Shown here piece after piece: positions 8,614-23,062 of a stretch of DNA of 23,150 bases (position 1 is its first letter; every line of letters begins with the position of its first letter). This DNA comes from Baffinella frigidus (taxonomy: Eukaryota; Cryptophyceae; Cryptomonadales; Baffinellaceae), in assembly GCA_026770585.1 (NCBI GenBank), contig MU646387.1, positions 19,826-42,975 of the forward strand. Reading direction: 5' to 3'. A program made the translations under genes and the position numbers. The notes beneath the pieces were generated by a model. It saw nothing but the letters and a program-made list of their open reading frames with translations, searched no databases and was not told where the DNA came from.

Positions 8614-8677
8614 CGCCGAGGATGGCGTTTGCAAAGCGCGCGGCGAGCAGCGCCACCCACCGCACCTCCCGCGGCAC
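8614..8677 (-). CDS. RETICULATA-related (DUF3411) protein, exon 9: C-terminal membrane segment
   Basis: Acceptor CCAACCCCTAG| (telomere-like sequence abuts it) and donor GGCG|GTGAAC. It encodes VPREVRWVALLAARFANAIL followed by GG, phase 0 in and phase 1 out. The R-F-A-N-x-x-x-G-G pattern near the C-terminus is characteristic of RETICULATA-related proteins. It is the intact member of an array whose truncated relatives lie at 8805-9310. Confidence 0.65.
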
Positions 8678-8681
8678 CTAG

Positions 8682-9310
8682 GGGTTGGAGTTAGGGTTTG
8701 GAGTCAAGGGTTTGGGGTTTGGAGTTTGGAGTTTGGGGTTTGGGGTTTAGGGTTTAGATGTTAGGGTTTAGAGTTTAGAGTTTAGGGTTCGGGGTTGAGG
8801 GTTTGCAACAGGGTGAAAGCAGCGCCACCCAGCGAGTGTCCCGCGGCACCTAGGGGTTGGGTTTAGAGTTGAGAGTTTAAAGTTGATGGTTTATGGTTTG
8901 GGGTTTGGGATTTGGGGTTCAGGGCTTAGGGTTTGGGGTTTAGGGTTTGGGGTTTGGGGTTTGCAACAGGGCAGAAGCAGCGCCACCCGCGGCACCTGCC
9001 GTTTTGGGGGGGTGAATTAAGTTTACTGGATACCCATACAGTCACGAAATCCTGGGCGTTACACAGCGGTTGAAACCTTAAACTCGAGGGAGAAGCCATG
9101 CACCAATAACAGAGCAGCGCCACCCACCGTGCCTCCCGCGGCACCTAACGTTCAGGGTTTAGGGTTTAGGGTTTAGGGTTGAGGGTTTAGGGTTTAGGGT
9201 TTGAGGCTTGGGGTTTAGTGTTTAAGGTTTAGGGTTTAGGGTTTAGGGTTTGGTGTTTAGGGAATGTAACAGGGCGGAAACACCGCTGCCCCCCGCGCCT
9301 CCCAAGGCAC
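8682..9310 (-). repeat. Array of truncated copies of DUF3411 exon 9, in telomere-like spacer
   Basis: Four partial copies of the 5' part of exon 9, each preceded in the sense direction by an AG acceptor and telomere-like sequence, start (sense) at 8849, 8995, 9144 and 9310. They encode VPRDTRWVALL, VPRVALL, VPREARWVALL and VPWEARGAAVF respectively. Each then runs into unrelated sequence and loses RFANAILGG; three share a GGGCGGAA/GGGTGAAA-CAACAGGG-like tail (plus-strand GCAACAGGG). All lie upstream of the intact exon. 9000-9110 is unique insert sequence without a recognised gene. Confidence 0.7.
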
Positions 9311-9454
9311 CTACCACGCCAGATTCTTGGAAGGGGTCGCCAAAAGACCATTCCCCGGAAGGAATAAGGGGGAATTGTTTACTTTTAGCATAGTAGGGCA
9401 CCCAAAAGTTCGCTCGGAAAGAGCCGAACCCCCATGAGGAATCTGGCGTGGTAG
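9311..9454. mobile_element. 144-bp foldback element, CCACGCCAG family
   Basis: Perfect 16-bp inverted termini CTACCACGCCAGATTC / GAATCTGGCGTGGTAG, with TA at both edges fitting a TA target duplication. It abuts the acceptor edge of the truncated exon-9 copy that starts at 9310. No coding capacity. Confidence 0.8.
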
Positions 9455-9520
9455 GGGTTGAGGGTTTCGGGTTGAACCCTCAACTCTTTGGTGTTTAGGA
9501 TACAGACGGCAGGGGGGCAC

Positions 9521-9556
9521 CTTGGGCAGCGCACGCGCCTCCCAGCACGCTAGGGC
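9521..9556 (-). CDS. DUF3411 protein, candidate microexon 8
   Basis: 36 nt between CCCCAAAACAG| and CCCAAG|GTGCCC, phase 0 at both ends, encoding ALACWEARALPK. In position and pattern it matches the short L-A-x-x-E-x-x-x-L-x-P stretch that follows N-L-R-Y-Q in the family, and it fills the gap between exons 7 and 9. It is too short to stand alone; the phase and context are the evidence. Confidence 0.45.
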
Positions 9557-9898
9557 CTGTTTTGGGGTTTGGGGTTTGGGGTTTAGGGTTTGGGGTTTCG
9601 GGTTTCGGGTTTCGGGTTTAGGGTGTAGGGTTTAGGGTTAGGTCTGGAGGGTTTTATGGTTTAGGGTCTGCGATGTGATGGTTCAGTGTTTAGTGTTTTA
9701 TTTTAGGATTTAGGGTTCGGACGTAGGGTTTAGGTGGCGTCCAGAAAGTGAGAGTAATAAAGTTGAGGATGTAGGTTTAGGGTGTAGGGTGCAGGGCGTT
9801 GGGTGTAGGGTGTAGGGTGTAGGGTGTAGGGCGTAGGGCGTAGGGTGTAGGGTGTAGGGTGAAGGGTGAAGGGTGTAGGGTGTAGGGTGTAGGGTGCC
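9557..9898. repeat. Telomere-like block, TTTGGGG/TTTCGGG then TGTAGGG variants
   Basis: About 9557-9655 reads TTTGGGG, TTTAGGG and TTTCGGG; 9776-9896 is a fairly homogeneous TGTAGGG array. 9656-9775 is partly diverged, including an AT-richer insert (GAGAGTAATAAAGTTG). It forms the intron between exons 7 and 8 of the minus-strand gene. Confidence 0.8.
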
Positions 9899-9901
9899 GG
9901 C

Positions 9902-9952
9902 CTGGTAGCGGAGGTTGGTGGCAGTGGCGAGGAACGCTCCGAACCCCAGCGC
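9902..9952 (-). CDS. DUF3411 protein, exon 7 with the NLRYQ motif
   Basis: Acceptor CCCAAACGCAG|, then 17 codons ALGFGAFLATATNLRYQ, phase 0. The G-x-x-x-x-x-S/T-x-N-x-R-Y-Q motif is one of the most recognisable parts of RETICULATA-related proteins (Pfam DUF3411). The 3' edge is uncertain: after CAG the genome reads GCCGGC, so either a GC donor is used or the exon extends a few codons (AGT) into the TGTAGGG array. Confidence 0.65.
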
Positions 9953-9956
9953 CTGC

Positions 9957-10770
9957 GTTTGGGGTTCAGGGCTCAGGGCTCAGGGTTTCGGGGGTTTGGG
10001 GTGCAGGGTTTTCGGGTTCAGATTTTCGTGTTTCGGAGTTTGCGGGTGCAGGGGTTTCGGTGTTTCGGGCTTTGGGTGCAGGGGGTTTGTCCTTGCCACC
10101 GTCGGGGGTTCGGGTTGCGGGTTGCGGGTTGTTGGTTTCGGATTTTGTGGAACCCCCGACACCCTAAACCCAATACCCCAAACTCTCATCGGCAGAACCC
10201 CAGCCCCCAACCCCGAAACGCAAAACCTTGACCACAGCCGGGGCGCTGGACGCCCCGCGCTTTAGCAGGCCCTCCCGCCCCAGGGCTCCCGGATTTCCGG
10301 GTTTCGGGCTCCGGGTACAGGGATTTCGGATTTTGGGTCCCGGATTGGATTTCGGATTTTGGGTTCCGGGTACAGGGATTTCGGATTTCGGGGTTTCGGG
10401 GTTTCGGGTTTCGGGGGTCTCGCCTTGGTCACAGCTGGGGCCCTGAACTTCCCGCGCCTTAGCAGGCCCTCGCGCCTCAGGGCTTCCGGGTTTCGGGTTC
10501 CGGGTACAGGGATTTTGGGGTTTGGGTTCCAAATTTCGGGGTTTCAAGTGGAGGATGGAGGGTGGAGGGGTCTCACCTTGGTTACTGCCGGGGTGCTGGA
10601 CGTCCCACGCCTTAGCAGGCCCTCACGCCGGAGGGTTCAGAATTCAGGGCGTGGGGTTTCGGGTACAGGGATTTCAGATTTGTGTGGGCTTTCAGGTTTT
10701 CGGAGTTTCGGGTGCAGGGAGTTCCCCAACACCCGAAACTCTCTCCCTATACCCGGAAACCCAAAACATA
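9957..10770 (-). repeat. Array of donor-edge copies of DUF3411 exon 6 in TTTCGGG-like spacer
   Basis: Three clear partial copies of the 3' half of exon 6 end (sense) at about 10571, 10422 and 10228. They encode LRREGLLRRGTSSTPAVTK, ALRREGLLRRGKFRAPAVTK and ALGREGLLKRGASSAPAVVK. They are followed by GTGAGA, GCGAGA and GTTTTG, so one keeps a good donor. A fourth, very decayed one is near 10085 (TVAK). All lack the 5' half and lie downstream of the intact exon. Spacer is TTTCGGG, TTCCGGG, GGTACAGGGATTTCG. Confidence 0.75.
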
Positions 10771-10773
10771 TAC

Positions 10774-10866
10774 CTTAGTCACAGCTGGGGCACTGGGTGC
10801 CCCGCGCCTTAGTAGCCCCTCTCTCCGGAGGGCTTCGCTTGCGATACACACGGCCAGGCCCAGCGC
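10774..10866 (-). CDS. DUF3411 protein, exon 6 (intact copy)
   Basis: Acceptor CCCCAACAG| and donor ACTAAG|GTATAT, 93 nt, phase 0 at both ends, 31 codons. It encodes LGLAVCIASEALRREGLL then RRGAPSAPAVTK. In RETICULATA-related proteins a hydrophobic G-rich helix and a charged loop precede the G-x-G-x-F-x-x-x-x-N-x-R-Y-Q segment; this exon and exon 7 recreate that order. It is the only one of about eight related copies that keeps both edges. Confidence 0.7.
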
Positions 10867-10983
10867 CTGTTGGGGTTTGGGATCTGGGGTCAGGTCACTC
10901 CTCCGCCGCCCGCCGTCGTCCTCACGGTCCGAAAACCCTTAACCCTGCGCCCTGACCCCCTCAACCCTCAACCCTCCTGAACC

Positions 10984-11600
10984 CTAAGCGAGGAGGTCCT
11001 CTCGCTCGAGGGCTTCGCTTGCGATACGCACGACGAGTCCTAGCGCCTGGCGTTAGGGAATTGGGGTATGGGGTCAGGTCAAATCCTCCGAACCCTAAAC
11101 CAGGGCTCAGGTCACCCCGAGCCCTGGCCTTCTCAAACATCCTGCCTCCTGAACCCTAAGCTCGGGAGAGCCTCCTGAACCCTAAGCTCGGAGGCAGCCC
11201 CCGCGCCGGAGGGCTTCGCTTGCGATGCACACGGAGAGCCCCAGCGCCTGCACTTAGGGGTTTGGGGTGTGACGCGCCTGACCCTCAACTGACCCTCATC
11301 AGTCCGCGGGCGTGCTGCGCGATCAGTGAATGGTGCTCCCCCCATAAGGTAGGAGTTGGAGTTAGAATCTATCCGGAAAATTCTCGTATGAGCGGCCGAC
11401 ACGGGGTGCAGTAGGTGGCGCAATGCGTAGCATGTGCGGCACTGACGCTGATTGTTTGGCAATAAATTATCAATCTCTCCCTCGTAAGGCCGTGAGGGGC
11501 GGCGTGGGGCCGGCGCGGCTGGGAACCCTAAACCCTAAGCTCGGAGGAGGCCCTTGCGCCGGAGGGCTTCGCTTGCGATGCACACGGAGAGCCCCAGCGC
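10984..11600 (-). repeat. Acceptor-edge copies of DUF3411 exon 6
   Basis: Three truncated copies of the 5' half of exon 6 lie at 11535-11600, 11182-11247 and 10984-11046 (66, 66 and 63 nt). Each starts at CAG|GCGCT and encodes ALGLSVCIASEALRR (or ALGLVVRIASEALER). Each then runs into an in-frame TAG that is part of the adjoining CCCTAAGC telomere-like sequence. All are upstream of the intact exon in the sense direction. The TAG, if spliced in, would truncate the protein. Confidence 0.75.
11335..11490. repeat. Partial copy of a dispersed repeat also found at 14460-14600
   Basis: Shared words in the same order: CCGGAAAA/CCGGGAAAA, GCTCGTA/TCTCGTA, CGACACGGGGT-CAGTA, GCACAATGCG/GCGCAATGCG, CTGACGCTGATTGT/CTGTCGCTGGCTGT, AATCTCTC. 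The two copies differ at roughly a quarter of positions. No coding frame recognised. Confidence 0.55.
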
Positions 11601-11605
11601 CTGGC

Positions 11606-11716
11606 GTTTGGGGTTTGGGGTTTAGGGTTTAGGGTTTAGGGTTTAGGGTTTAGGGTTTAGGGGTGGGGTTTTGGGGTTTGGGTTTAGGGTTTAGGGTTTA
11701 GGGTTTAGGGTTTGGG
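11606..11716. repeat. Telomere-like TTTAGGG block next to the gap
   Basis: Mostly exact TTTAGGG units with TTTGGGG at the ends. It ends in a short unique stretch (11717-11761) that runs into the assembly gap. In sense it lies directly before the acceptor of the exon-6 copy at 11600. Confidence 0.85.
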
Positions 11717-11761
11717 CATTCCAATCAATCCGAATCGATGTCCCCAGGAAAGGTGACCAAA

Positions 11762-12407
11762 NNNNNNNNNNNNNNNNNNNNNNNNNNNNNNNNNNNNNNN
11801 NNNNNNNNNNNNNNNNNNNNNNNNNNNNNNNNNNNNNNNNNNNNNNNNNNNNNNNNNNNNNNNNNNNNNNNNNNNNNNNNNNNNNNNNNNNNNNNNNNNN
11901 NNNNNNNNNNNNNNNNNNNNNNNNNNNNNNNNNNNNNNNNNNNNNNNNNNNNNNNNNNNNNNNNNNNNNNNNNNNNNNNNNNNNNNNNNNNNNNNNNNNN
12001 NNNNNNNNNNNNNNNNNNNNNNNNNNNNNNNNNNNNNNNNNNNNNNNNNNNNNNNNNNNNNNNNNNNNNNNNNNNNNNNNNNNNNNNNNNNNNNNNNNNN
12101 NNNNNNNNNNNNNNNNNNNNNNNNNNNNNNNNNNNNNNNNNNNNNNNNNNNNNNNNNNNNNNNNNNNNNNNNNNNNNNNNNNNNNNNNNNNNNNNNNNNN
12201 NNNNNNNNNNNNNNNNNNNNNNNNNNNNNNNNNNNNNNNNNNNNNNNNNNNNNNNNNNNNNNNNNNNNNNNNNNNNNNNNNNNNNNNNNNNNNNNNNNNN
12301 NNNNNNNNNNNNNNNNNNNNNNNNNNNNNNNNNNNNNNNNNNNNNNNNNNNNNNNNNNNNNNNNNNNNNNNNNNNNNNNNNNNNNNNNNNNNNNNNNNNN
12401 NNNNNNN
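11762..12407. other. Assembly gap (646 N)
   Basis: Unknown bases. The gap lies in the intron between DUF3411 exons 5 and 6, bordered by telomere-like or CCCCGCACCCC repeats, so it probably reflects unresolved repeat. Its length may be an estimate. Confidence 0.98.
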
Positions 12408-12504
12408 CACCCCGCACCCCGCACCCCCCACCCCTCAACCCTCACCCCTCGCCCCTAACACCTAAACGCTGGCCTCGACAGCCAGTGGGGGGGGGGCGGG
12501 TGAC

Positions 12505-12553
12505 CATGAGCTGAGCGGCGCGGACGGCCACGCTCTTGGCCCGCGCCAGATAG
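12505..12553 (-). CDS. DUF3411 protein, exon 5
   Basis: Acceptor CGTGCGCAG| and donor CTCATG|GTCACC; 49 nt encoding YLARAKSVAVRAAQLM after one base that completes a Ser codon from exon 4. The family has a conserved (Y/F)-S-L-x-Q-R-x-x-x-x-x-x-K-x-x-Q-L-F segment at this place. It ends in phase 0, fitting exon 6. The donor GTCACC is weak but the same hexamer follows exon 2. Confidence 0.6.
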
Positions 12554-12735
12554 CTGCGCACGCGAACACTCAACTTGAGAGAACACTCAACGTAAAGATC
12601 CAGAGTCAAAAAAGAGGAATAAAGAACGTGAACGATTGGAAGTGAGAAGGGGAGGAAGCAAGATGTATTGAATTCTAGCACGGCTGCGCAGAGCCAGAGG
12701 GCTGGTGTTTGGGGTTTGGGGATTGGGGTTTGGAC

Positions 12736-12774
12736 CTGAAATCACCGGGCTGAGCAGCGAAGGCGGGGAGAGAT
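12736..12774 (-). CDS. DUF3411 protein, exon 4 (microexon)
   Basis: 39 nt between TTCGCGCCGCAG| and TTTCAG|GTCCAA. In the one frame whose phases fit both neighbours it encodes SLPAFAAQPGDF, matching the L-P-x-x-A-F stretch that precedes the S-L-x-Q-R segment in the family. The last AG joins the first C of exon 5 to give Ser. A decayed copy of its acceptor edge (GCGAAAGCGG / CGCCGCAG|ATTG in sense) lies upstream at about 12938-12958. Confidence 0.55.
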
Positions 12775-12988
12775 CTGCGGCGCGAAACGGGGTGAATGAG
12801 ACGTTCAACACTACCAACACGGCCACCATGTATGCGCCCCCACCGAAGCTGCGTCTGAGTGAGTGACGCAAAACGCCATGACCGACCCTCTCACCCAGGA
12901 CCCTAACCCCTACACCCTACATCCTAAAGTGCAATCTGCGGCGCGAAAGCGGTTTGAGAGGCACACTAGGACCAACCCTCTCACCCGC

Positions 12989-13177
12989 CACTCGAGAATG
13001 CTGGAGGATCCTATTTACATGTGGGGTTGTGAATATTTGAACCAGGATATGGTATTCCAACCTCGCGCCTGTGCTAATTTCGCAGAGTTACTTGACCAAT
13101 CAACGAAAGTTACTACACAAATGCCCACTTTTAAAAACACATAGGTTTTAAATAGGCCCCTCCAGCATTCTCGTGTG
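12989..13177. mobile_element. 189-bp foldback element
   Basis: Inverted ends CACTCGAGAATGCTGGAGG / CCTCCAGCATTCTCGTGTG, extending inward with CCTATTTA/TAAATAGG; about 25 of 28 positions pair. No open frame recognised. It lies in the intron between DUF3411 exons 3 and 4. Confidence 0.7.
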
Positions 13178-13660
13178 ACGGGGCATCCAATCAACTCCTG
13201 TTTTTTCTAAAATCAACCCCCATGCACCCACTCGGTGGACCACAAAGGTGTTGACTACGCTAGATTTGGCGTATAACGTGACCAAATTTGCACTAGAAAA
13301 TTCTTCAAGCTAATTTCCTCAAGGCAAGTTGACTTTTGATGAAAGGTCCGTAGTCCACGGTGTGGCCGTCAACGTTGATTAGGTTGAGGGCGCCGATCTG
13401 GCGTGTTGGGATCCTGACGTGGACAGTTTGTATTGGGGTTGACTGACAAACTCATCCCGCTGCAAGTGCAATCTCCCGCGCTGCCTGCGTTTATCTCGTC
13501 TCCTCACTATATACAAGTAGGCAAACAGTCCCGTACACAGAAAGCTTCAAACAACCATCTAATTTCTTTTAATGAAGAGCCACATTCACGCAAGCGGAGG
13601 ACTCTCAGGGATCTTGTGCGCGCGGGAGCGGAGGCGGGGGCCAGCAGGAGGGGGGCGGAC
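13178..13660. other. Unique intron sequence with a possible foldback remnant
   Basis: 13255-13270 (ACTACGCTAGATTTGG) and 13392-13408 (GCCGATCTGGCGTGTTG) form a loose inverted pair resembling the CCACGCCAGAT terminus of elements elsewhere in the window. The rest is AT-moderate sequence without a recognised gene, within intron 3 of the minus-strand gene. Confidence 0.35.
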
Positions 13661-13830
13661 CTCCCCCACGAGAAAGGGCTTCCAGGAAACGCGCGGCGCA
13701 AGCGCGTGAGGACGGAGGCGGGCGGGACGTGCGGCGGGATCGATAGGCCCGCCTCGGGATGGATGGGCTCGCTGCGGGAAAGAGGCGCGGCGGGCGCGAA
13801 GAGGCACACCATTATCACATCCCCTGCCGC
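13661..13830 (-). CDS. DUF3411 protein, exon 3: membrane segment ending in an AP motif
   Basis: Acceptor CCTGAATCAG|, with CCCTAAACC just upstream, then 170 nt ending GGGGGAG|GTCCGC (phase 2). The start encodes AAGDVIMVCLFAPAAPLSRS, a hydrophobic helix closed by L-F-A-P, as in the D-x-x-L-V-x-L-L-A-P segment of the family. A variable Pro/Arg-rich stretch follows. The open frame continues beyond the donor to about 13560, so the 3' edge is chosen from phase agreement with exon 4. Confidence 0.6.
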
Positions 13831-13867
13831 CTGATTCAGGAGGTTTAGGGTTTGGATTCAGGAGTGT

Positions 13868-14045
13868 TACCACGCAAGATTGTAGAGCTGACTGGCGTAC
13901 AGGAGAAATAGCCAGTTCTGGCTGTTTTTTAAGTTCACACGTGGACATTCTCCCCACAGAAAAAAAACGAAATTTCGGAAAGTTGGTACAAATTTCGTGT
14001 GAACTGACTTGTTTTCCCAGGTCAGCCCTACACTCTTGCGTGGTA
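13868..14045. mobile_element. 178-bp foldback element
   Basis: Inverted ends TACCACGCAAGATTGTAGAG (continuing CTGAC) and its complement match at about 23 of 25 positions, with TA at both edges. The CCACGC(A/C)AGATT terminus relates it to 9311-9454. A smaller inner pair, AGTTCACACG / CGTGTGAACT, suggests nested symmetry. Confidence 0.75.
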
Positions 14046-14219
14046 TGGGGTTGGGTTCTGGAGGTGTTGGGTTCGCCTGCCGCCTTCAGGGGGCGTGTCA
14101 GGCCACTTAGCAGCGGCCGAGTTCCTTTCCCCCCAAATATCCGGGGGAAATGCGGTTAGAATCCAATGCAAATGGATAAGATTCTAGTACAAATTATTTA
14201 GATGGACTGCATCCGTAAA

Positions 14220-14760
14220 GCCCCCGGTGGCTGCTAAGTGGGAGGCGCGCGCGCTCCCGGTTGAGATCATCGTTGACATGATCTCGAGCTCTGCCTCAGT
14301 CGGGTGGGCCGACTATTCTCAAGTTAACATTCCGCGTGTGTGGCACAAATCCGTGGGACGAAAAAGGACCCGGTCTCACCAAATTGAAATCAGACTAAGA
14401 CCGAGACTGATCTGGGCTGCCCTAGGACCCACCCAACCCCAACCCCCAAACCCCAGCTAGGGTGTGCGGGAAATCCGTCCGGGAAAAGCTCGTAAAAACG
14501 ACCGACACGGGGTACAGTATGCAGCACAATGCGGAAGGAGTGTGCAGCGCTGTCGCTGGCTGTTGCAAAAAAATACGAATCTCTCTTTGCGGGAAAGCCC
14601 TCGAGGAGAAGCACGAGCTCAATCGGCCTCACCCACCCAACCCCCAACCACCACCCACAAAACCCCAGCTAGAGTGTGCGGGAAAGACCGCGCTCCCGGT
14701 CGAGACGAACTCTAGCTCAGCGTCAGACGAAATCGACTGAGACAGAGCTAGCCAGGAGGC
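14220..14760. repeat. Composite dispersed repeat (CTCTGCCTCAGTCG family)
   Basis: 14288-14410 resembles 7966-8090; 14460-14600 resembles 11335-11490. GCGCTCCCGGT(T/C)GAGA occurs at 14250 and 14691, and AGCTCTGCCTCAGTCG (14288) has a near-perfect inverse at 14734-14749, so the whole may be one foldback element of about 460 bp. No protein domain recognised. Confidence 0.5.
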
Positions 14761-14773
14761 GCGGGGGGGTGAC

Positions 14774-14839
14774 CTCGAGGAGAAGCGCGAGCACGACGAG
14801 GTCCATGTCCGCCCACACCCCTCTCCGCATCAGTGCCGC
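14774..14839 (-). CDS. DUF3411 protein, exon 2 (intact copy)
   Basis: 66 nt between CCCTAAACCCGGAAACAG| and CTCGAG|GTCACC, phase 0 at both ends. It encodes AALMRRGVWADMDLVVLALL then LE. It corresponds to the A-E-x-x-(K/R)-R-G-x-x-F-W-x-E segment and following helix of RETICULATA-related proteins and joins exon 1 (ending KLAAQ) to exon 3 without a gap in the family pattern. The acceptor is formed directly by the edge of a TTTAGGG block. Confidence 0.7.
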
Positions 14840-14847
14840 CTGTTTCC

Positions 14848-15602
14848 GGGTTTAGGGTTTAGGGTTTAGGGTTTAGGGTTTAGGGTTTAGGGTTTAGGGT
14901 TTAGGGTGAATGGTTTCGGGTTTCGGGTTTCGGGTTTCGTGTTCCGCCCACACCCCTCTCCGCAGCAGCGCCGCCTGTCCCAAAGGGGATGTTCAGTTTT
15001 CTATGCTGCACCCGCCCCCCAATCGCACCCCTGTCCACAGCAGCCCCGCCTCTCGCCAGCCCATGACGACCCAAGAGTACTCGAACTGGCCAAGCCACGG
15101 CGTTGGGTGTAGGGTTCAGGGTTTAGGGAGTAGGGCGTTGGGTCTAGCTCGGTAGGAGTTCTGTCGTGGCAGGCGTTTGGGTAGTAACGTTCGTGAGTGC
15201 ACGACAAGGTCCAAGTCCGGCCACACCCCTCTCCGAAGCAGCGCCGCCTGCCCCCAAGAAGATCTTCAGTTTTCTATAGCATAGATTTTCAGTTTTCTAT
15301 TTCGCATAGAAAACTGCGGCGACCGTCTGCCCATCACACCCCTCTCCGCAGCTGCGGCGTCTGTTCCCATGTGGATGTTCAGTTTTCTATGCTGACCCCA
15401 CCCCCGCCCATCACACCCCAGCTCTGCCTCGGCGAAACTGGGCTCGGCATAAAGGCATGTTAGTTGCCCGGCCACACCCCTCTCCGAAGCAGCGCCGCTG
15501 GTCCCCCGGTTTAGGGGTTAGGGGTTAGGGTTTAGGGGTTAGGGTTTAGGGTTTAGGGGTTAGGGTTGAGGGTTTAGGGTGTTTAGAGTTAAGGGTTTAG
15601 GC
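14848..15602 (-). repeat. Acceptor-edge copies of DUF3411 exon 2 between telomere-like blocks
   Basis: Truncated copies of the first part of exon 2 start (sense) at 14974 (AALLRRGVWAEH), about 15050 (AGLLWTGV), 15247 (AALLRRGVWPDLDLVV), about 15351 and about 15492. On the plus strand each shows CCACACCCCTCTCCG followed by a GCAGCGCCGCC-like end. All lie upstream of the intact exon. TTTAGGG blocks occupy 14848-14930 and 15508-15602. Copies of CAGTTTTCTATGCTG occur at about 14993, 15264, 15290 and 15381. Confidence 0.75.
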
Positions 15603-15888
15603 CCCGCCCGCCTATCACACCCCAGCTCTGCCTGCGGAAAACTGCGCTCGCCATCCACCAACCCTCACAGCCTGGGCAAATCGGGAACAATGGCTCCAAA
15701 ACTTCCCTTGGAGGCCGTCGGATTCCGACGTCGGTTATTTTTTAAACTCCCAAAACTTGATCACAGCAGGGTGTTTGGAGTTCTAAAATCGCTTTGCTCA
15801 AAAAGTCGAAAATTCTTGATTTGTCCAGGCTGTGAGGGTTGGTGGATAGAAGCATTTCAGTTCCCCGTGTGTACGGGAGCCAGTCTCA
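15603..15888. other. Unique intron sequence
   Basis: Mostly non-repetitive. CTATCACACCCCAGCTCTGCCT at 15612 matches similar words at 15410 and 16199, decayed relatives of the exon-2 flank. No gene recognised on either strand. It belongs to intron 1 of the minus-strand gene. Confidence 0.4.
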
Positions 15889-16187
15889 TCCGGGAACAAG
15901 TATTTTTCTTTTGAAACATCTGCACGAAAATTACTAGAGCGTTTGCGGTAATTGTTGCCCGTTTTTAATTTGCAGTTTTCGGGTTTTCGGGTTTTCATTT
16001 GCACCAGAAGTGTCCATTTAAAATGTTGAACGACCTTGACACCATTTTTAAAAAACCGAACACCCGAAAACTGCAAGTCGAAAACGGACAACAATTACCG
16101 CAAACGCTCTACACGATTGCTTCTGACGTGACCCATTTTGTAGTAATTTCCATGGCCAGATTTTTTTAAAAAAAACTTGTTCCCGGA
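15889..16187. mobile_element. 299-bp long-hairpin element
   Basis: Outer inverted ends TCCGGGAACAAGT / ACTTGTTCCCGGA. Inside, arms from 15936 (AGAGCGTTTGCGGTAATTGT) and ending at 16110 (complement) pair over about 55 bp with few mismatches, reaching TTTTCGGG/CCCGAAAA. No open frame for a transposase. A transcript through it would form a strong hairpin. Confidence 0.8.
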
Positions 16188-16252
16188 TTCAGCCCGCCCA
16201 TCACACCCCAGAGTACTCGAACTCCTACCGAGCCTCAGCCAACGACACGACG

Positions 16253-16370
16253 TTGGGTGTAGGGTTTAGGGTTTAGGGTTTAGGGTTTGGGGTTTAGGGT
16301 TTAGGGTTTAGGGTTTAGGGTTAAAGGTTCAGGGTTTAGAATTAAGGGTTTAGGGTTTAGGGTTTAGGGT

Positions 16371-16402
<32 letters not shown>

Positions 16403-16412
16403 GGTTTATGGC
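16253..16412. repeat. Telomere-like block (TTTAGGG then TTGAGGG)
   Basis: Near-pure TTTAGGG at 16260-16320 and a five-unit TTGAGGG run at about 16368-16405. It follows closely after the donor of DUF3411 exon 1, in intron 1, where it reads CCCTCAA/CCCTAAA in sense. Confidence 0.85.
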
Positions 16413-16464
16413 TTTGGGTGGTGCTCGGTGGTACTTCCTGGCAGGAGGCGGGAGCGGGACCAAC

Positions 16465-16968
16465 CTGAGCAGCCAGTTTCGACGCACAGCCAATCGCGAC
16501 CTCGGCCAGGAGCGCCGGCGCGAACGCATCATGAGCGTCCGCGGCGCAGCGGTCGCGCAGCATTGGGTGAAGCGCGGCGACCCCGCGCGTAAGAAGCCCG
16601 GCCCTCCGCAAGCGCAGAAAGCCTGCAAGGGCCATCACGCCTGCCCGCCGCGAGAGGAGGGCCTCGCGCACGTCCGCTGGCAGCCCCTTCTCACTCTCCC
16701 CGGTAGCGCGAAGCAGAGCCACACACACATCGGGAATCGTGGGCGCGGCAGGATGGACGGGACCAGACCGCAATCTGAAAATTGATCTCAAAGTTCGAGT
16801 CAGCACGGAGGGCCCCGTTTCCCCTCGGGGGTGACACGCCGCGTGGTCGCCTTCATCCTGCTGGGCGGGCGCGCCTCGCCGGAAGCAGGGGAGCGCCGCG
16901 CTGCGCAAGCAGGACCCGGAGAGCAGGAAGACCACCAGCACTCTTCGCGCCAGGCTACCCCGCATCAT
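16465..16968 (-). CDS. RETICULATA-related (DUF3411) protein, exon 1 with N-terminal targeting sequence
   Basis: 168 codons from the ATG at 16968 (a second ATG follows at once, 16965) to GCTCAG|GTTGGT, phase 0. The N-terminus has the shape of a signal peptide: basic SLARR, hydrophobic VLVVFLLSG, and a small-residue RSAALP region. A basic stretch (CFRRGAP) follows, as in the bipartite presequences of complex-plastid proteins. From about residue 88, GLPADVREALL, then LAGFLRLRRAGLL and PMLRDRCAADAHDAFAPALL with AEVAIGCASKL, follow the family pattern (M-L-x-x-R-x-L-A-D-P-x-F-x-x-K-x-x-x-E-x-x-I). Plant members are plastid-envelope membrane proteins that affect leaf and plastid development; the biochemical function is not known. 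A TTTTCAG at about 16780 could be an internal acceptor, but the frame is continuous. Confidence 0.7.
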
Positions 16969-17397: not shown

Positions 17398-17414
17398 GGT
17401 TTATTAGCGACAGG

Positions 17415-17951
17415 ATGCTTGCCATCGGGACCACCCGGGGGGAGGTGCTCGTGGTTGATTCACAGGGGCGCACCCGCTTCAAGCGTGAGGAGCGGCACGG
17501 CAAGGTCTTCTGCGTTTCGCTTTCCCCGGATGGCAGAAGCCTGGCTTCGGGTTCTCAAGACGGGACGCTCAATTTATGGGATGTTGGAACGGGGAAGATT
17601 GTGAGGAACCTCAAGGCCAACAGCATGCAGCAGGCGGGCTGCGCACGCGAAGGCGCCGCGGGGGGGCACGAGGGCGTCCACGCGCCGCCCTGCCGCGCCA
17701 TTGCCTGGTGCCCATCGGGGAAGTTGTTAGCTTCAGGCGACGAATCCGGGCAGGTTTGCCTGTGGAACTTGGCGGATCCAGCTCAAGACGCCCCGCTCCA
17801 GCGACTCTGCGGAGATCGCGGCGGGGTGCTCTCCGTAGCGTTCTCCCCCGATGGCAGCGGGCGCGTCGCGAGCGGGGGCGGGCGGGGGAGCATCACGGTG
17901 TGGGACCGCGACGGGGCGGTGGAATGGACGCGGGCGGACGTGGCGAGCCAG
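17415..17951 (+). CDS. WD40-repeat protein, exon 1
   Basis: Start taken at the ATG at 17415; the frame is open upstream and GAAGCGCAG| before 17398 could be an acceptor, so a 5' exon is possible. Four WD40 units are visible: MLAIGTTRGEVLVVDSQG; then FCVSLSPDGRSLASGSQDGT with LNLWDV; then IAWCPSGKLLASGDESG with VCLWNL; then LSVAFSPDG with ITVWD. An Ala/Gly-rich loop interrupts units two and three. The exon ends at AGCCAG|GTGCCT, phase 0. WD40 propellers are protein-interaction scaffolds; the partner cannot be read from sequence. No other domain is seen in the exons available. Confidence 0.75.
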
Positions 17952-18655
17952 GTGCCTGTCTTACCACCAACCCTCACGGGTCACGGGAGGACCAAATCGT
18001 TGATTTTCAGACCTCGGATTGAGGGGGCGTCGGGGTCGGATCCGACCCCGACGATTTTATAATGGCCCAATAAAAGGCTGCTTTCTCTGGGTTTGGGAGT
18101 TTTAAAAATGGGGTTCGGGTTTAGGGTTCAGGGTTTGCGGGTCCGGAAGAGGCGCAACTCCTGCGTTTTGCTGGTGGCTTGCCATCAATCCCCAGCTCTA
18201 TCTTTGTTTGTGTGGTCTCACCAAATTTGGTCTCACCAATTTGGTGAGACTAGGCTCGTGCCCCCTCCAAAGTTGTCAGATCTGTACCACACACACAGCA
18301 CGTCAACTTACGAAAAGGCAGCGAGCCCGAATGAGGCAGCGCTGGAATCCCTGCAGCACCCCCCCCCCCTTCAAACGGCGCGCCCCCTGAACTCTAAAGT
18401 CTAAACGCGATCCGTGATTGAAGCTCTCAAACTTCAACCATGGGATACCATGAGCCTCATAAAGGCTGACTTGGGTTCGGTGTGTGTGCGGGCGCGTTCC
18501 TATTTTGGAAGCAATCAAACACCCCAACAGAGACACCCTTTGTCCCCTCTTCACGAGCCCCTGCACTGGAGAGCTCAACGCGATCCGAAAGCAAAAATGC
18601 TTTCTCTGCAGTCCTTTCTACGGAAGGGCGTGTCGTTGGGCCGTGTTGGGAGCAG
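17952..18655 (+). other. WD40 intron 1, with dispersed-repeat fragments
   Basis: Holds a perfect palindrome TCTCACCAATTTGGTGAGA (18231-18249) next to a second TCTCACCAAATTT, words shared with the dispersed repeat at 8056 and 14371. TTTAGGG-like sequence at 18115-18135 is in the opposite orientation to most repeats in this gene. CC runs at 18359-18369. No separate gene recognised. Confidence 0.45.
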
Positions 18656-18734
18656 TTAAAACCTGAAGGACCTGAACCCTCCAAGGTACGGACGGTGGTC
18701 TTCTCACCAGACGGGCAGAAGCTCGCGAGCGCAG
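18656..18734 (+). CDS. WD40-repeat protein, exon 2
   Basis: Acceptor TTGGGAGCAG|, donor GCGCAG|GTGCCA; 79 nt, phase 0 in and phase 1 out. It encodes LKPEGPEPSK then VRTVVFSPDGQKLASAG, the first strands of a fifth WD40 unit. An alternative acceptor CCAAG| before GTACGG (18686) keeps the same phase. The split codon joins exactly to exon 3. Confidence 0.7.
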
Positions 18735-18754
18735 GTGCCACACCTGGCCCACAC

Positions 18755-19026
18755 CCTAACCCCTAATTCCTAATCCCCTAACCCCTAATCCCTAAGGCCC
18801 ACACCCTAATCCCTAATCCTCAATCCCTAATCCTAATCCCTAAGCCCCAAACCCTGACCCCCAACCCCTAACCCCTAAACCCTGAACCCTAAACCCTGAA
18901 CCCTGAACCCTAAACCCTAAACCCTAAAAGATAACCCGTCAACATTAAACCCGAACCCCGAAAACCGAAACCCTAATCTCTAAGCCCTAATCGCTAAACC
19001 CTACGATCTAAACCCTAACCCCTAAG
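18755..19026. repeat. Telomere-like block, CCCTAAT/CCCTAAC/CCCTGAA variants
   Basis: Fills WD40 intron 2. The left part is CCCTAATC/CCCTAACC-type, the right part CCCTAAA/CCCTGAA. The plus strand is C-rich here, opposite to most blocks below 16.4 kb, in step with the change of transcription direction. Confidence 0.85.
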
Positions 19027-19168
19027 GTTGACGGGTTTGTACCACAGGCCTAGGATGTCAACCTAAGAATAGGATGACAACTCGACGCTTCGTCCCCTGT
19101 TTGCACCGCTGCGTCCAACCCCGGACCCTGAAATAACCGCCCCCCCCTCCTCTCTGCACTATCGCCAG

Positions 19169-19273
19169 GCTCAGACGCAGCCGTGCAAATATGGGACGCA
19201 GCCTCCGGCGCGCTGCTCCACTCCATCACCTTCCCTTCCTCCGGGGACTCTGTCTCGTGGTCATCCGCGGGAG
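19169..19273 (+). CDS. WD40-repeat protein, exon 3
   Basis: Acceptor CTATCGCCAG|, donor CGGGAG|GTGTGG; 105 nt, phase 1 at both ends. GC completes Gly, then SDAAVQIWDAASGALLHSI and a strand-A segment DSVSWSSAG. It completes the WD40 unit begun in exon 2 (AG then SDAAVQIWD is the canonical blade turn) and starts the next. Two truncated copies of its donor edge lie downstream. Confidence 0.75.
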
Positions 19274-19396
19274 GTGTGGCCCTTATTTTCACTCGCCAAA
19301 AATTCAACGCACGTCAACAAGCGCCCTAAACCCTAATAAGCCCTGAGCCTTAAACCCTATGTCCTAAACCCTAAACAGTAGACTCTGAACACTAAA

Positions 19397-20013
19397 CCCG
19401 CGTCCGCGCGCGGGAACCTTCCCCTCAGCAAGTGGCTCTGACTCGTGGTCCTCCGCGGGAGGTGCGGCCTTCAGGACTTTTAGGATTTATTTTCCAATGC
19501 ACCCAAGTGCGCCTTTCAATCGTCGTTGCTGACAAAGGAATAAATTACCATTTTGAGGCCTTTTATGCACTTTCCTATCGATAATCGCGTTTCCTATCCT
19601 TCCAGACTTTTGATTGCCATCGTTTGATTTCCGACGTAACTGACCACTGGGTAAAAGCCAGAATGTCAAGATGCCACCCGACCCCCTCATAGGGTGACGT
19701 TCTGAAAACCGGGTAGTTAGGCCTACGGTATTGACTACAGTAGGCCGTAGGGTCCCTAGGCCTTGTTTTCTCGCAAGATCCCCCCTAGGCTCCTACGACC
19801 TACCGTAGTCAAAACCGTAGGCCTAACCACCCGGTTTTCAGCCCGTTACCCTATTAACCCTGAGGTGTGACACGCGTCCGCGCACCCCTCTACGCTGCCC
19901 GATCCACTCAAGACGGACCGAGGCCTTTGTTTCAAACCTACAAGTGGTTGCGTGAAATCTCGTTTGGAGTGCGTGTGACTCTTGTCGCGTGGTCCTCCGC
20001 GGGATGTGCGACC
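19397..20013 (+). repeat. Two donor-edge copies of WD40 exon 3
   Basis: Copy one, about 19397-19461, keeps CTTCCCCTCAGC-AGTGGCTCTGACTCGTGGTCCTCCGCGGGAG with GTGCGG after it. Copy two, about 19865-20004, is more decayed: GTGGTCCTCCGCGGGA then TGTGCG, so the donor is lost. Both also share a GCGTCCGCGC lead-in. They lie downstream of the intact exon, 190 and 730 bp away, with telomere-like repeats at 19322-19398 and unique sequence at 19465-19688. Confidence 0.7.
19689..19854. mobile_element. 166-bp foldback element with about 50-bp inverted ends
   Basis: Ends start ATAGGGTGACGTTCTGAAAA (left) and ATAGGGTAACGGGCTGAAAA (right, complemented) and stay paired through CCGGGTRGTTAGGCCTACGG to GACTAC. 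TA at both edges fits a TA target duplication. No coding capacity. It sits between the two donor-edge copies of WD40 exon 3. Confidence 0.85.
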
Positions 20014-20057
20014 CTCATCCCTAACGAGTCGTGTGTTAAATTTAATGGACCGGAAAA

Positions 20058-20341
20058 CGAAACCCTCAACCTTGAACCCTGAACCCTGAAACCTCAACCC
20101 CAAACCCTAGGCCCTAAGCCCTAAACTCTAAAACCTTAACCCTAAAACCTAAACCCTGAAGCCTGAGTCCCAAACCCGACACCCCAAACTCCACAACCCA
20201 CACCCAAACCCCAAAACCCTAAACGCACGGGCGTGTGCTTCATTCAGAGCTGACACACCAAACACCAAACACCAAACACCAAACACCAAACACCAAACAC
20301 CAAACCACCAAACACCAAACCACCAAACACCAAACCACCAA
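20058..20341. repeat. Telomere-like block, then an ACCAAAC array, up to the exon 4 acceptor
   Basis: 20058-20225 is CCCTAAA/CCCTGAA-like. 20255-20341 is a tidy 7-bp array of ACCAAAC with ACCAAACC variants. Only CCAATGTGGCAG separates it from WD40 exon 4, so the array sits where a branch point and pyrimidine tract would normally be. Confidence 0.85.
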
Positions 20342-20349
20342 TGTGGCAG

Positions 20350-20426
20350 AGCTGGCGTGCGGTGGGGATGATATGGCTGTGAGAATCTTCGATGCCCAGA
20401 CCGGGCGTCTCAAGCGTTGCATCCAG
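20350..20426 (+). CDS. WD40-repeat protein, exon 4
   Basis: Acceptor ATGTGGCAG|, donor ATCCAG|GTATGT; 77 nt. AG completes a Glu codon from exon 3, then LACGGDDMAVRIFDAQTG and RLKRCIQ, phase 0 out. Together with the end of exon 3 (WSSAG) it forms one complete WD40 blade. The donor GTATGT is strong. Confidence 0.8.
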
Positions 20427-20665
20427 GTATGTGTTCTTTCTTCTTCGTCTTCCTTCTTTTCTTCTACTTCTTGTTCTTCTTCCTTCTTTTCCTGTTCTTC
20501 TTCTGGTTCTTCTTTTTCTTCTTGTTCTTGTTCTTCTTGTTCTTGTTCTTCTTGTTCTTGTTCTTGTTCTTGTTCTTCTTCTTCTTCTTCTTGTTCTTGT
20601 TCTGGTTCTTCTTCTTCTTCTTCTTCCTCCTCCTCCTCTTCCTCCTCCTCCTCTTTATTGCACTC
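20427..20665 (+). repeat. TTCTTG/TTCTTC pyrimidine microsatellite
   Basis: About 220 bp of TTC, TTG and CCT triplets with no purine runs on the plus strand, starting directly after the exon 4 donor. Long serine- or leucine-like open frames here are artefacts of the repeat. The tract could form triplex DNA. Confidence 0.9.
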
Positions 20666-20679
20666 AGCCTATTGGGAAA

Positions 20680-21060
20680 TGTCAGCATTCCCAGCACGTC
20701 CACTCGCACGTCCCCCTTCGTGACGGACGTGTTGATATCTTCAGCACGTGCTGACGGTCACCTTGAGTGCTGACGGTCAGCACGTCCAGCCTCGGGCAGC
20801 ATTCGCATGGCTCCCGTAAGGTGCACACAGGCGCGTTATTTCCTCACGCCTCTCGCTCCAGGGTTCAGGGTTGAGGTTGTAGGGGCGCGTTCTGCCCGCA
20901 CGCCTCGCGCTGCAATGAGCATGAGGTTGAACCCCGACGGTTGGGGTATGTGACGCACGGGCGGCAGGTGCGTTCTGTCCGCACGCCTCTCGCTCTAGGG
21001 TTGAGGGTGTAGGGGCTAGGGGCGCGCTAGGGTTGAGGGTGTAGGGGCGCGTTCTTCCTG
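20680..21060. repeat. CAGCACGTGCTG palindromes and GCGCGTTCTGCCCGCACGCC repeats
   Basis: 20690-20790 has interlocking CAGCACGT/ACGTGCTG and GTGCTGACGGTCA words, including the perfect palindrome CAGCACGTGCTG (20741-20752). From 20831, about four imperfect units carry GCGCGTTCTGCCCGCACGCC, TCTCGCT and AGGGTTGAGG (starting near 20831, 20884, 20969, 21046). Here the telomere-like words are G-rich on the plus strand. No gene recognised. Confidence 0.6.
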
Positions 21061-21104
21061 CACACCGTGCGCTGTAGTTAGCCTGAGGTTGCCGCGGTCG
21101 TGTG

Positions 21105-21118
21105 TGACGCAACGAGAG

Positions 21119-21175
<57 letters not shown>

Positions 21176-21212
21176 GGCAGACAGAAAGACGGATGCGGCA
21201 GAGCTGGCGTGT
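21105..21212 (+). repeat. GA and GACA microsatellites and an acceptor-edge copy of WD40 exon 4
   Basis: A GA run (about 21122-21149) passes into a GACA run (about 21148-21184). Immediately after, GGATGCGGCAG|AGCTGGCGTG repeats the acceptor edge of exon 4 (ATGTGGCAG|AGCTGGCGTG) and then diverges. This copy lies downstream of its exon, against the trend seen elsewhere. Confidence 0.65.
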
Positions 21213-21299
21213 GTGACGCATACATGGGGCGTTTGTTCTGGGGCGTGAATCCCTGACACTCGCATCCTTGCCTTTGGGTAGGTGTAGCCCCAAACTATA

Positions 21300-21600
21300 T
21301 ACCTCAAAATCCTGGAACCCCGAACCCTACACCCTGAACCGGTGTCGTGCGCCTCCCCTGCCGCTAAACCCTAAACCCTAAACCCTACACCCAAAACCCT
21401 AAACCCTAAACCCTGAACCCTAAACCCTAAACCCTAAACCCTAAACCCTAAACCCTAAGCACAAAACCTAAACTCTAAACCCTACACACCAAACCCTAAA
21501 CCCCAAACCCTAAACCCCAAACCCTACACACGAAACCTTAAACCCTAAACCCTACACACCAAACCCTAAACCCTTAGCCCCAAATCCTAACCCCCACGCC
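21300..21600. repeat. CCCTAAA telomere-like block
   Basis: Long stretches of exact CCCTAAA (21366-21388 and 21395-21460) with CCCTACACAC and CCCCAAA variants. C-rich on the plus strand, in WD40 intron 4. Confidence 0.9.
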
Positions 21601-21663
21601 CTGACCTCAGGGGCACGACGGATGCAACGGGTGCCTCTGCCAACCCTTCTCTCAGGTACCCCC

Positions 21664-22026
21664 CCCAGTCATCAGCGGAGTTTTGGGCTTACTTTTGAGA
21701 ATCCTTAAGCCCTTAGAAACCATAAACCCGAAGCCCTAAGCCCTAAGCCCTAAGCCCTAAACCCTGAACGCCATGAATGCAACGGCTGCATGTGCCAACC
21801 CTTTTCTCAAGTACCCTCCCCCCACGCCAGATTGCAGGTGGGGGTTGATTTTTTTAACCCGCGTCTGAAAGCGGTTGTTGACTTTTGAAAACCACTGCCC
21901 TCAGGAGGAATTGACTTTTGGCGATCTCTTCCAAGGCTCTGGCGTGGCCAGTCATCAGTAGAGTGTAGGGCTTTCCAAAAACTAAGCAATCCTCAAAGTA
22001 AGCCCTAAACTCCGCAAATGACTGGG
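21664..22026. mobile_element. Nested foldback elements (CCCAGTCAT and CCACGCCAG)
   Basis: CCCAGTCATCAGCGGAGTTT at 21664 has an inverse at the right end (22026) and a direct copy at 21948, so 21948-22026 is a small hairpin by itself. 21822-21947 is a separate 126-bp element with perfect 10-bp ends CCACGCCAGA / TCTGGCGTGG, related to 9311-9454. TTGACTTTTG is repeated inside it. Confidence 0.65.
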
Positions 22027-22189
22027 GTGGTGTTATCCCTAAACCCTAAACCTGAACCCTAAATCCTAAACACGAAGGATAGATTTCGGCTTCAGGCTTC
22101 CTTTCGTAATCGTCGTTGAGGTTGGGATTTAGAACCCCTCAGCCCTAAACCTAAACCCTAAACTTAAACCCTAAACGATCAACCCGTTT

Positions 22190-22383
22190 GCCAACCACAC
22201 GAGGCTGGTCCAACACCCTTTCAAAGTGTTGATGGTAGGCGTTTTGTATGGAATTGGTCACGTGGCTACACGGAAAGCGTTTAGCCACGTGACCAAACAT
22301 ATGAAAATTACTACACACTACCTCACTTGTACAGCTCTGGGTTTTAAAGAGGGTGCTTGAGCCGCCTCGTGTGGTATGCCAGC
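22190..22383. mobile_element. Foldback element with CCACACGAGGC ends
   Basis: CCACACGAGGC near 22195 and its complement GCCTCGTGTGG near 22362 enclose a perfect 14-bp-arm hairpin, TTGGTCACGTGGCT (22254-22267) and complement (22283-22296). It overlaps one copy of the GCCAACCC repeat at its right edge. No coding frame. Confidence 0.5.
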
Positions 22384-22424
22384 CCTTCTCGCAGGTACCC
22401 CCCCGGTGATGTCATCCGCTTTAG

Positions 22425-22772
22425 GGTTCAGGGTTTCGGTGTTAGGGTTTAAGCTTTAGGGTTCAGGGTTCTGGTTTCAAGATTCTGGGTTCAGGCTTGA
22501 GGCTTCAGGGTTTATGAGCTTTTTGTAACCGGCCAAACCCCCAAGCCCAAAGCGCAAAGCCCACGCTCAAATCCCCAAACCCCACACCCCACACCCCACA
22601 CACCACACACCAAACCCCAAACCCCACATCCTAAACCCCACACCCCACATCCCACACCCCACACCCTAAACCCAACCCCCAAATCCCAAACACCAAACAC
22701 CAAACACCAAACACCAAACCCCACAACCCACGCCCCACACCCCACACCCCGCACCCCACACCCCACACCCAA
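22425..22772. repeat. Telomere-like blocks, first G-rich then CCCCACA/ACCAAAC C-rich
   Basis: 22425-22515 is TTTAGGG/TTCAGGG-like (G-rich plus strand); 22545-22772 is CCCCACACCCCACA, ACCAAAC and CCCTAAA (C-rich). The orientation flips within about 30 bases. The second block runs up to the acceptor of the exon 5 copy at 22777. Confidence 0.8.
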
Positions 22773-22776
22773 ACAG

Positions 22777-22845
22777 GCGGTAGAGACGCAGGATGACTTC
22801 CAGGGGCACCACGATTGGGCGTGGGCAGTCGCGAATCCGAAGTAG
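22777..22845 (+). pseudogene. Truncated acceptor-edge copy of WD40 exon 5
   Basis: Starts at CACCCAAACAG| and encodes AVETQDDFQGHHDWAWAV then ANPK before an in-frame TAG (22843-22845), where the intact exon continues. About four of the first 20 residues differ from exon 5. It lies 180 bp upstream. If spliced in it would end the protein in the WD40 domain. Confidence 0.7.
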
Positions 22846-22958: not shown

Positions 22959-23062
22959 GCGGTGGAGACGCAGGATGGCTTCTCGGGGCACCATGATTGG
23001 GCGTGGGCCGTGGCTACCCCCGGCGGAAAGACGGACCCAAACTGTCAGCGCGAAGGCCACAG
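22959..23062 (+). CDS. WD40-repeat protein, exon 5 (gene continues past the window)
   Basis: Acceptor CGGGTGCAG|, donor GGCCACAG|GTGCGT; 104 nt, phase 0 in and phase 2 out. It encodes AVETQDGFSGHHDWAWAV then ATPGGKTDPNC; G-H-x-D-W-x-W-x-V is the usual start of a WD40 blade. It follows exon 4 (RCIQ) without a gap in the repeat pattern. No stop or polyadenylation site is seen, so further exons lie to the right. Confidence 0.7.

Follow-up and report, generated by a model that had tools for sequence, protein, structure and literature searches.

Analysis of a 23,150-nucleotide stretch of the genome of the cryptophyte Baffinella frigidus (G000:C85:19826-42975, from an assembly of 382 Mb in 1364 contigs; this whole stretch is referred to below as the window) revealed that exons of its two genes, a RETICULATA-like (DUF3411) gene on the minus strand and a WD40 gene on the plus strand, are accompanied in the neighbouring introns by truncated copies of their own edges. 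These copies are sorted by type, with copies of the acceptor edge lying upstream of the intact exon and copies of the donor edge lying downstream of it. This edge-sorted pattern is real and statistically clear in the exons read, and we regard the copies as fossils of introns that grew through repeated tandem duplication of short segments, a reading to which we assign a probability of about 0.8.

The best protein match of the spliced minus-strand gene was the annotated B. frigidus protein P0001, which carries PF11891 and of which all 257 residues could be placed on the window in ten pieces; the spliced query also matched the RETICULATA-like family of Pfam. For the plus-strand gene, an annotated B. 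frigidus model (P0006) and a longer protein (P0005, 396 amino acids, the product of a 1,477-base contig) were identified. Residues 1-306 of P0005 are identical to the window letter for letter across six exons spread over 5.6 kb, and its source contig therefore derives from a spliced transcript; the source tag 'lgn' is one that we take to denote a read-archive assembly. Exon boundaries were taken from P0001 for the DUF3411 gene and from P0005 for the WD40 gene. P0001 and P0006 may have been annotated on a version of the assembly other than that of the window.

Copies were sought with two scans. The first was a local alignment of each exon alone against its gene region in both orientations, with 30 shuffles per query. 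The second, strict scan used 40 shuffles, masked all exons and accepted matches scoring at least 18 and above every shuffle; it covered 27 exons in eight gene regions (15 exons of the window, DUF3411 exon 10 being omitted, and 12 outside it), with the ends of exon 3 and of WD40 exons 3, 4 and 6 placed one to two bases off. The 23 matches of the strict scan comprised 11 acceptor-edge copies upstream, eight donor-edge copies downstream, one near-whole exon upstream that lacks a donor, two interior matches (a 5' part upstream and a 3' part downstream, both outside the window, at C94b and C6) and one inverted match. Every same-strand edge-typed match (19 of 19) thus lay on the predicted, outer side, no acceptor copy being downstream and no donor copy upstream, which bears out the ordering that an initial annotation of this DNA had proposed (11 of 11 and eight of eight). 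With totals fixed, the chance of such sorting was worked out by hand as 1 in 75,582, or 1 in 462 when each array is counted once (six acceptor and five donor arrays, all on the predicted side).

Both scans gave local copies on the same strand as the exon that include exon sequence together with the splice site. Side-by-side alignment showed that most start right after the AG or end right before the GT, while the end inside the exon stops short. Divergence between copy and exon was approximately 6-27 percent in the first scan. Six of the 15 window exons carried copies in the strict scan and nine carried none. Several marginal matches of the first scan are not edge copies and fail the strict scan, namely those in sense at 16581-16608, 12931-12950 and 17627-17677, those in antisense at 14239-14258 and 10242-10275, and the sense pair 13746-13802 / 16868-16931, which is exons 1 and 3 matching each other. 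An earlier pass over the other genes, in which 15-base flanks were included in the query, gave more matches than the strict scan (one antisense match at C39 with a score of 19.0, and further C94b and C6 matches on the predicted sides); only strict matches were counted.

Intact exons and copies are given in Table 1. The clearest case is DUF3411 exon 6, which had been described as bearing copies on both sides and was indeed found to have three acceptor-edge copies upstream and three donor-edge copies downstream, all passing both scans. Its acceptor copies all run into the same kind of junction (GCTTAGGGTT), and its donor copies all start at exon bases 31-33. About five acceptor copies had been reported for exon 2, of which four (15247, 14974, 15498 and 15359) beat all shuffles of the first scan and three pass the strict scan, while the one at 15049 fails. 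The four reported for exon 9 all beat the first-scan shuffles, but that at 9310 does not survive the strict scan, leaving three. A proposed acceptor copy of exon 4 was not upheld, as the repeat near 12935 is of the intron tail with approximately two exon bases included, and the first scan gave no second copy.

For the WD40 gene, both of the donor-edge copies claimed for exon 3 pass, and the acceptor copy that had been assigned to exon 5 was found at 22777, upstream of an exon that is exon 6 by the transcript. The single exception that had been pointed out near 21192 is real by eye: approximately 20 bases from the acceptor edge of exon 4 recur downstream of that exon, a match too short to reach the thresholds. 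Previously overlooked copies were identified for WD40 exon 5 (donor edge, 21777 and 22368) and DUF3411 exon 2 (donor edge, 14600-14644), all on the predicted side, together with a copy of the beginning of WD40 exon 3 in inverted orientation (19084-19115).

Table 1. Intact exons, edge copies and telomere-like tracts of the DUF3411 and WD40 genes (positions in the window)
Feature	Position	Strand	Remarks
DUF3411 exon 1, coding part	16465..16966	-	P0001 starts at 16635; upstream ATG used by three relatives
Exon 2 acceptor-edge copy	15465..15498	-	AG lost, reads CCA; first and strict scans
Exon 2 acceptor-edge copy, weaker	15325..15359	-	First scan only
Exon 2 acceptor-edge copy	15199..15247	-	43/49 bases; first and strict scans
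Exon 2 possible acceptor-edge copy	15026..15049	-	Score below null maximum
Exon 2 acceptor-edge copy	14931..14974	-	Continues into telomere-like repeats; first and strict scans
DUF3411 exon 2, intact	14774..14839	-	In annotated P0001
Exon 2 donor-edge copy, downstream	14600..14644	-	Donor GT lost; first scan only
DUF3411 exon 3	13661..13830	-	P0001
DUF3411 exon 4	12736..12774	-	No exon-level copy; intron tail repeated near 12935
DUF3411 exon 5	12505..12553	-	P0001
Exon 6 acceptor-edge copy 1	11545..11600	-	First and strict scans
Exon 6 acceptor-edge copy 2	11196..11247	-	First and strict scans
Exon 6 acceptor-edge copy 3	10991..11046	-	First and strict scans
DUF3411 exon 6, intact	10774..10866	-	Copies on both sides
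Exon 6 donor-edge copy 1	10577..10638	-	GTGAGA donor; first and strict scans
Exon 6 donor-edge copy 2	10424..10486	-	Donor is GCGAGA; first and strict scans
Exon 6 donor-edge copy 3	10227..10287	-	Alignment ends 6 bases before donor; both scans
DUF3411 exon 7	9902..9952	-	Apparent GC donor
DUF3411 exon 8	9521..9556	-	P0001
Exon 9 acceptor-edge copy, weakest	9273..9310	-	First scan only
Exon 9 acceptor-edge copy	9112..9144	-	31/33 bases; first and strict scans
Exon 9 acceptor-edge copy	8955..9001	-	Deletion near start; ends in telomere-like repeats; both scans
Exon 9 copy	8790..8849	-	Alignment over exon bases 1-61 of 64; acceptor retained, no donor; both scans
DUF3411 exon 9, intact	8614..8677	-	In annotated P0001
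DUF3411 exon 10 and stop codon	8305..8339	-	P0001
Telomere-like heptamer tracts, DUF3411 gene	8361..16419	-	Mainly CCCTAAA in sense strand
WD40 exon 1	17415..17951	+	P0005
WD40 exon 2	18686..18734	+	P0005
Exon 3 start, inverted copy, just upstream of exon	19084..19115	-	First and strict scans
WD40 exon 3, intact	19169..19273	+	In transcript
Exon 3 donor-edge copy	19416..19461	+	GGGAG/GTGCGG kept; first and strict scans
Exon 3 donor-edge copy	19977..20004	+	Donor damaged; first and strict scans
WD40 exon 4, intact	20350..20426	+	In transcript
Exon 4 acceptor-edge copy, short, downstream	21191..21211	+	About 20 bases, by eye; below both thresholds
WD40 exon 5, intact	21611..21655	+	In transcript
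Exon 5 donor-edge copy	21777..21810	+	GTACCC kept; first and strict scans
Exon 5 probable donor-edge copy	22368..22395	+	GTACCC kept; score merely equals best shuffle
Exon 6 acceptor-edge copy	22777..22832	+	49/56 bases, AAACAG kept; first and strict scans
WD40 exon 6, intact	22959..23062	+	In transcript
Telomere-like heptamer tracts, WD40 gene	18753..22770	+	Mainly CCCTAAA in sense strand

The 12 exons outside the window belong to six further gene regions found by family search (approximately 21 kb read). One is another RETICULATA-like gene, and the other five are stretches with matches to the Cpn60/TCP-1 chaperonin family; among these, C94a and C94b appear to be opposite ends of a single gene, so that the eight regions probably represent seven genes. 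Edge-typed copies were identified in four of the 12 exons (C1202, C94a, C94b and C6), every one on the predicted side, which extends the ordering to chaperonin-family genes. The pattern is therefore not private to the window, although the sample is small and several scores lie at or just above the threshold. In random sampling of the genome, nine of 20 regions were entirely N, as were approximately 98 percent of two flanking stretches.

The edges in use were examined through the available proteins. In P0005, the only protein derived from a transcript, WD40 exons 3 and 5 are spliced at their inner donors and exon 6 at its inner acceptor, in keeping with the expectation that the innermost sites are used, and the inner edges are likewise those of P0001 for the DUF3411 gene. 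Independently of the annotation, among the copies of five exons (19 copies), columns that vary were spread 16:16:20 over the three codon positions, while columns where the copies agree and the exon differs were spread 3:0:6 (small numbers). This even variation among copies, together with the third-position bias of the exon-private changes, indicates that the copies drift while the exon is constrained.

We propose that a segment spanning an intron-exon border, with one end in each, would be duplicated head to tail. At an acceptor the product would be intron end, exon head, intron end and whole exon; at a donor it would be whole exon, intron start, exon tail and intron start. Splicing would stay with the site on the complete exon, the probable reason being that nowhere else do an acceptor and a donor face each other over an exon-sized stretch, and the outer piece would become intronic and decay. 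With an intronic and an exonic breakpoint, such a duplication necessarily leaves the truncated copy upstream of the exon where an acceptor is crossed and downstream of it where a donor is crossed. Whole-exon or within-exon duplications would alter the protein and tend to be removed and purely intronic ones would be silent, while those spanning an edge would be silent only when the outer site is ignored. The sorted order is therefore a result of geometry and selection. Repetition of the process, along with insertion of telomere-like repeats and mobile elements, would add further intron length. That duplication took place, and that decoys are skipped through exon definition, is what we infer, and the evidence that telomere-like tracts take part at the breakpoints is suggestive only.

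Across the eight gene regions, short direct duplications are common, with 79 direct and 12 inverted duplicate pairs. With telomere-like tracts masked, exon-touching direct pairs were compared with circularly shifted controls, giving 13 observed versus 10.6 expected for the DUF3411 gene, five versus 2.7 for the WD40 gene and 23 versus approximately 20 for all eight regions. A mechanism aimed specially at exon edges was rejected, as exon-touching pairs were not significant in any of the eight regions (lowest P 0.15); these pairs being within the shifted controls, exon edges look like bystanders of the duplication process.

A number of points weigh against intron growth by tandem duplication, or against the strength with which it can be stated. 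The inverted copy at 19084-19115 is unexplained by simple tandem duplication, and both it and the downstream acceptor-edge copy near 21192, which is the exception to the same-strand ordering, need another type of event. Inverted pairs are not rare in 11 sampled loci, several of them mostly N, where 280 direct and 151 inverted pairs were counted: direct pairs were very unevenly distributed, numbering 54, 47, 1, 1, 46 and 1 in L012, L015, L019, L020, L022 and L023 and 9, 13, 106, 0 and 2 in L024, L025, L027, L029 and L030, and L027 held 90 of the 151 inverted pairs. The intron parts between copies are only partly alike, and a clean repeated unit is not visible everywhere. Regarding the counts, edge typing tolerates six bases of slack, copies inside one array are not independent, and some scores are marginal (C94a exactly at the threshold; C6 at 18.5 and 19.0 versus 18). 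Seven of the 12 outside exons carry no copy, in a readable sample of that size. The inner edges of the DUF3411 gene are known from annotation only. Finally, the shortage of second-position differences between exons and copies (43:22:70 by codon position over 21 alignments, a raw count that mixes copy drift and exon change) exceeds, by our estimate, what freely drifting copies would predict, and the exon 6 copies keep their peptide rather well, so that some may have been coding at an earlier stage.

The gene regions also hold telomere-like heptamers, which show a strong strand polarity. On the sense strand of the whole regions, CCCTAAA was counted 161 times and TTTAGGG nine times; the C-rich form is the majority in eight of eight regions, two of which hold just one heptamer, and the tracts make up 0 to 19.5 percent of a gene region. 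Between 7035 and 22770 the strand of the repeat switches with that of the gene, such that both window genes have the C-rich form in sense. CCCTAAA repeats are without AG or GT, while TTTAGGG repeats give an acceptor-like TTTAG, and the polarity could reflect a splicing filter or an avoidance of G-rich RNA. An overall deficit of AG within introns was considered as its cause: AG stood at 0.84 of expectation, but TC (0.84) and CA (0.83) were as low, giving no support for a special shortage of AG.

These tracts raise the alternative that breaks in or near introns were repaired with telomeric repeats, staggered breaks leaving direct duplications of which the edge copies are a by-product. In PMC7215372 and PMC2246262, interstitial telomeric repeats of mammals are described as having been inserted at double-strand breaks, sometimes with direct duplication of the target (3 of 66 horse loci), and the authors of PMC7215372 regard effects on splicing as interesting to test. 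In agreement with such repair, the truncated ends of eight of 21 copies lay within 20 bases of a tract, against a null mean of 2.25 for random intron points and with none of 2000 null sets reaching eight; at 5, 10 and 40 bases the counts were four, six and nine (P 0.008, 0.0015 and 0.008). This test is generous, since several of the eight ends share one junction and the null excluded points inside tracts, and 12 of the 21 ends lie more than 40 bases from a tract (e.g. 15247, 15498, C1202 and C94a). Copies with approximately 45-60 exon bases are, in our judgement, also long for duplications at staggered breaks. We hold this explanation to be possible but doubtful. The present repeats resemble the interstitial telomeric sequences of those papers in being short repeats away from chromosome ends, partly intronic and sometimes associated with direct duplication, and differ from them in being degenerate, occupying up to a fifth of a gene region and being strongly polarised by gene.

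A coupled cycle in this lineage is put forward no more than tentatively, in which breaks near junctions would be repaired with duplication of the junction and telomere-like filler, thereby driving intron growth, with rows of near-perfect decoys tolerated through recognition across the exon. Only filler with CCCTAAA in sense would survive, because it is without AG and GT, whereas TTTAGGG repeats would be ready-made acceptors.

Retention of the copies for the sake of isoforms, as functional alternative splice edges or as mutually exclusive exons, is improbable. AG or GT is retained in many of them, exon 6 copies retain much of the peptide, and the exon-to-copy differences given above lean to third positions. 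However, just one of the 23 strict matches spans nearly a whole exon, and that one is without a donor; AG or GT is gone in others (15498, 14600 and 20004), the copies vary about equally at the three codon positions, and the transcript-derived protein uses none of the listed WD40 copies. Retention of both splice sites together with constraint, as expected of mutually exclusive or alternative exons, was not found among the copies.

Mobile introner-type elements that brought exon-like ends into introns are a still poorer explanation, and one we consider very unlikely. Repeats do occur inside the arrays, among them one of approximately 130 bases at 11349-11479, which matches at least 43 further genomic sites at 88-95 percent identity. 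This repeat sits between exon 6 edge copies 1 and 2 and does not carry them. When P0001 was searched against the readable genome, the DUF3411 gene with its copies was the only locus matched, and one element in the introns of many genes was not found. A paralogous source of the DUF3411 copies was rejected on the same search, P0001 finding its own locus only, although unreadable stretches may hide others. An assembly artefact, with contig ends misplaced or duplicated, is the least credible account: the DUF3411 gene contains a 646-base gap (11762-12407) and much of the assembly reads N, but the copies are diverged from their exons to the extent given above and recur in other genes, and the WD40 exons match the transcript exactly.

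The initial annotation had suggested repeated tandem duplication across splice junctions, which agrees with the main evidence, but had added that no named mechanism predicts the pattern, which was unsupported: geometry dictates the sorting, and tandem duplication crossing a boundary is named in PMC4974935. In the potato RdRp gene described there, the closest published case found, a tandem duplication over an intron-exon boundary turned an exonic piece intronic. The process proposed here is similar in that a direct tandem duplication crosses the boundary, the upstream copy of the exonic sequence turns partly into intron, and the splicing signals are mostly inherited from the parental intron. 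In potato, unlike here, a cryptic donor in the copied exon piece made an additional intron after a single duplication (PMC4974935), while in B. frigidus an existing intron would absorb pieces, repeatedly and at donors as well as acceptors. The Rogers model of tandem duplication of AGGT (as described in PMC4974935) and tandem duplication near intron pairs in Drosophila (PMC2891723) are alike in that a short coding tandem duplication is followed by intronisation of one copy.

The signature of the Rogers model, in which the intron start resembles the next exon start or the intron end the previous exon end, was absent overall in 19 introns, with means of 4.3 and 4.5 of 14 bases against 4.2 and 4.8 for mismatched pairs. 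One intron scored 9 of 14, with its boundary placed one base off. Intron birth of the Rogers type was thus rejected as a general rule, there being no excess over mismatched pairs in these introns. The donor of the second exon of C94b was not found by the pattern of the strict scan and the end of the family match was used instead; if the donor is at GTCATT, the start of this intron may, by eye, closely resemble that of the next exon. Where short exons are separated by long introns, as in the genes here, splicing by exon definition is expected (PMC6142364). Among the records listed in searches of an open-licence library, none described arrays of exon-edge copies or strand-polarised intronic telomere-like repeats in its title or the start of its abstract. 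The class of mechanism is known; the extent and density of the copies, the rows of decoy splice sites and the polarity of the repeats are distinctive.

Further features were observed in and around the two genes. A diverged relative of the 11349-11479 repeat was seen by eye at approximately 14480-14600, and an element with inverted ends (CTACCACGCCAGATTC), also seen by eye, lies at 9300-9460 beside an exon 9 copy. DUF3411 exon 7 apparently ends in a GC donor (CAG/GCCGGC, 9896-9902). WD40 exon 3 (19169-19273) is missing from P0006 and present in P0005, pointing to exon skipping or a wrong gene model. Upstream, at 1157-6435, the plus strand carries a gene with an NB-ARC domain and TPR repeats, with a CHAT match below the cut-off. 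Elsewhere, the product of an open frame at L027:5553-5969 presumably resembles an ice-binding protein.

An edge copy preserves the state of a coding exon that has since escaped selection, next to an exon still under selection, and the copies together are a direct record of intron lengthening. The arrays set closely similar decoy acceptors or donors beside the site in use, such that mapping of RNA would reveal the rule by which sites are chosen. The C-rich sense orientation, shared by all eight gene regions, is a regularity that is simple and open to testing. Were the coupled cycle true, the introns of these genes would be strings of splice-silent telomeric repeats punctuated by fossil exon edges, and the genes would offer a natural experiment on exon definition in an alga of single cells.

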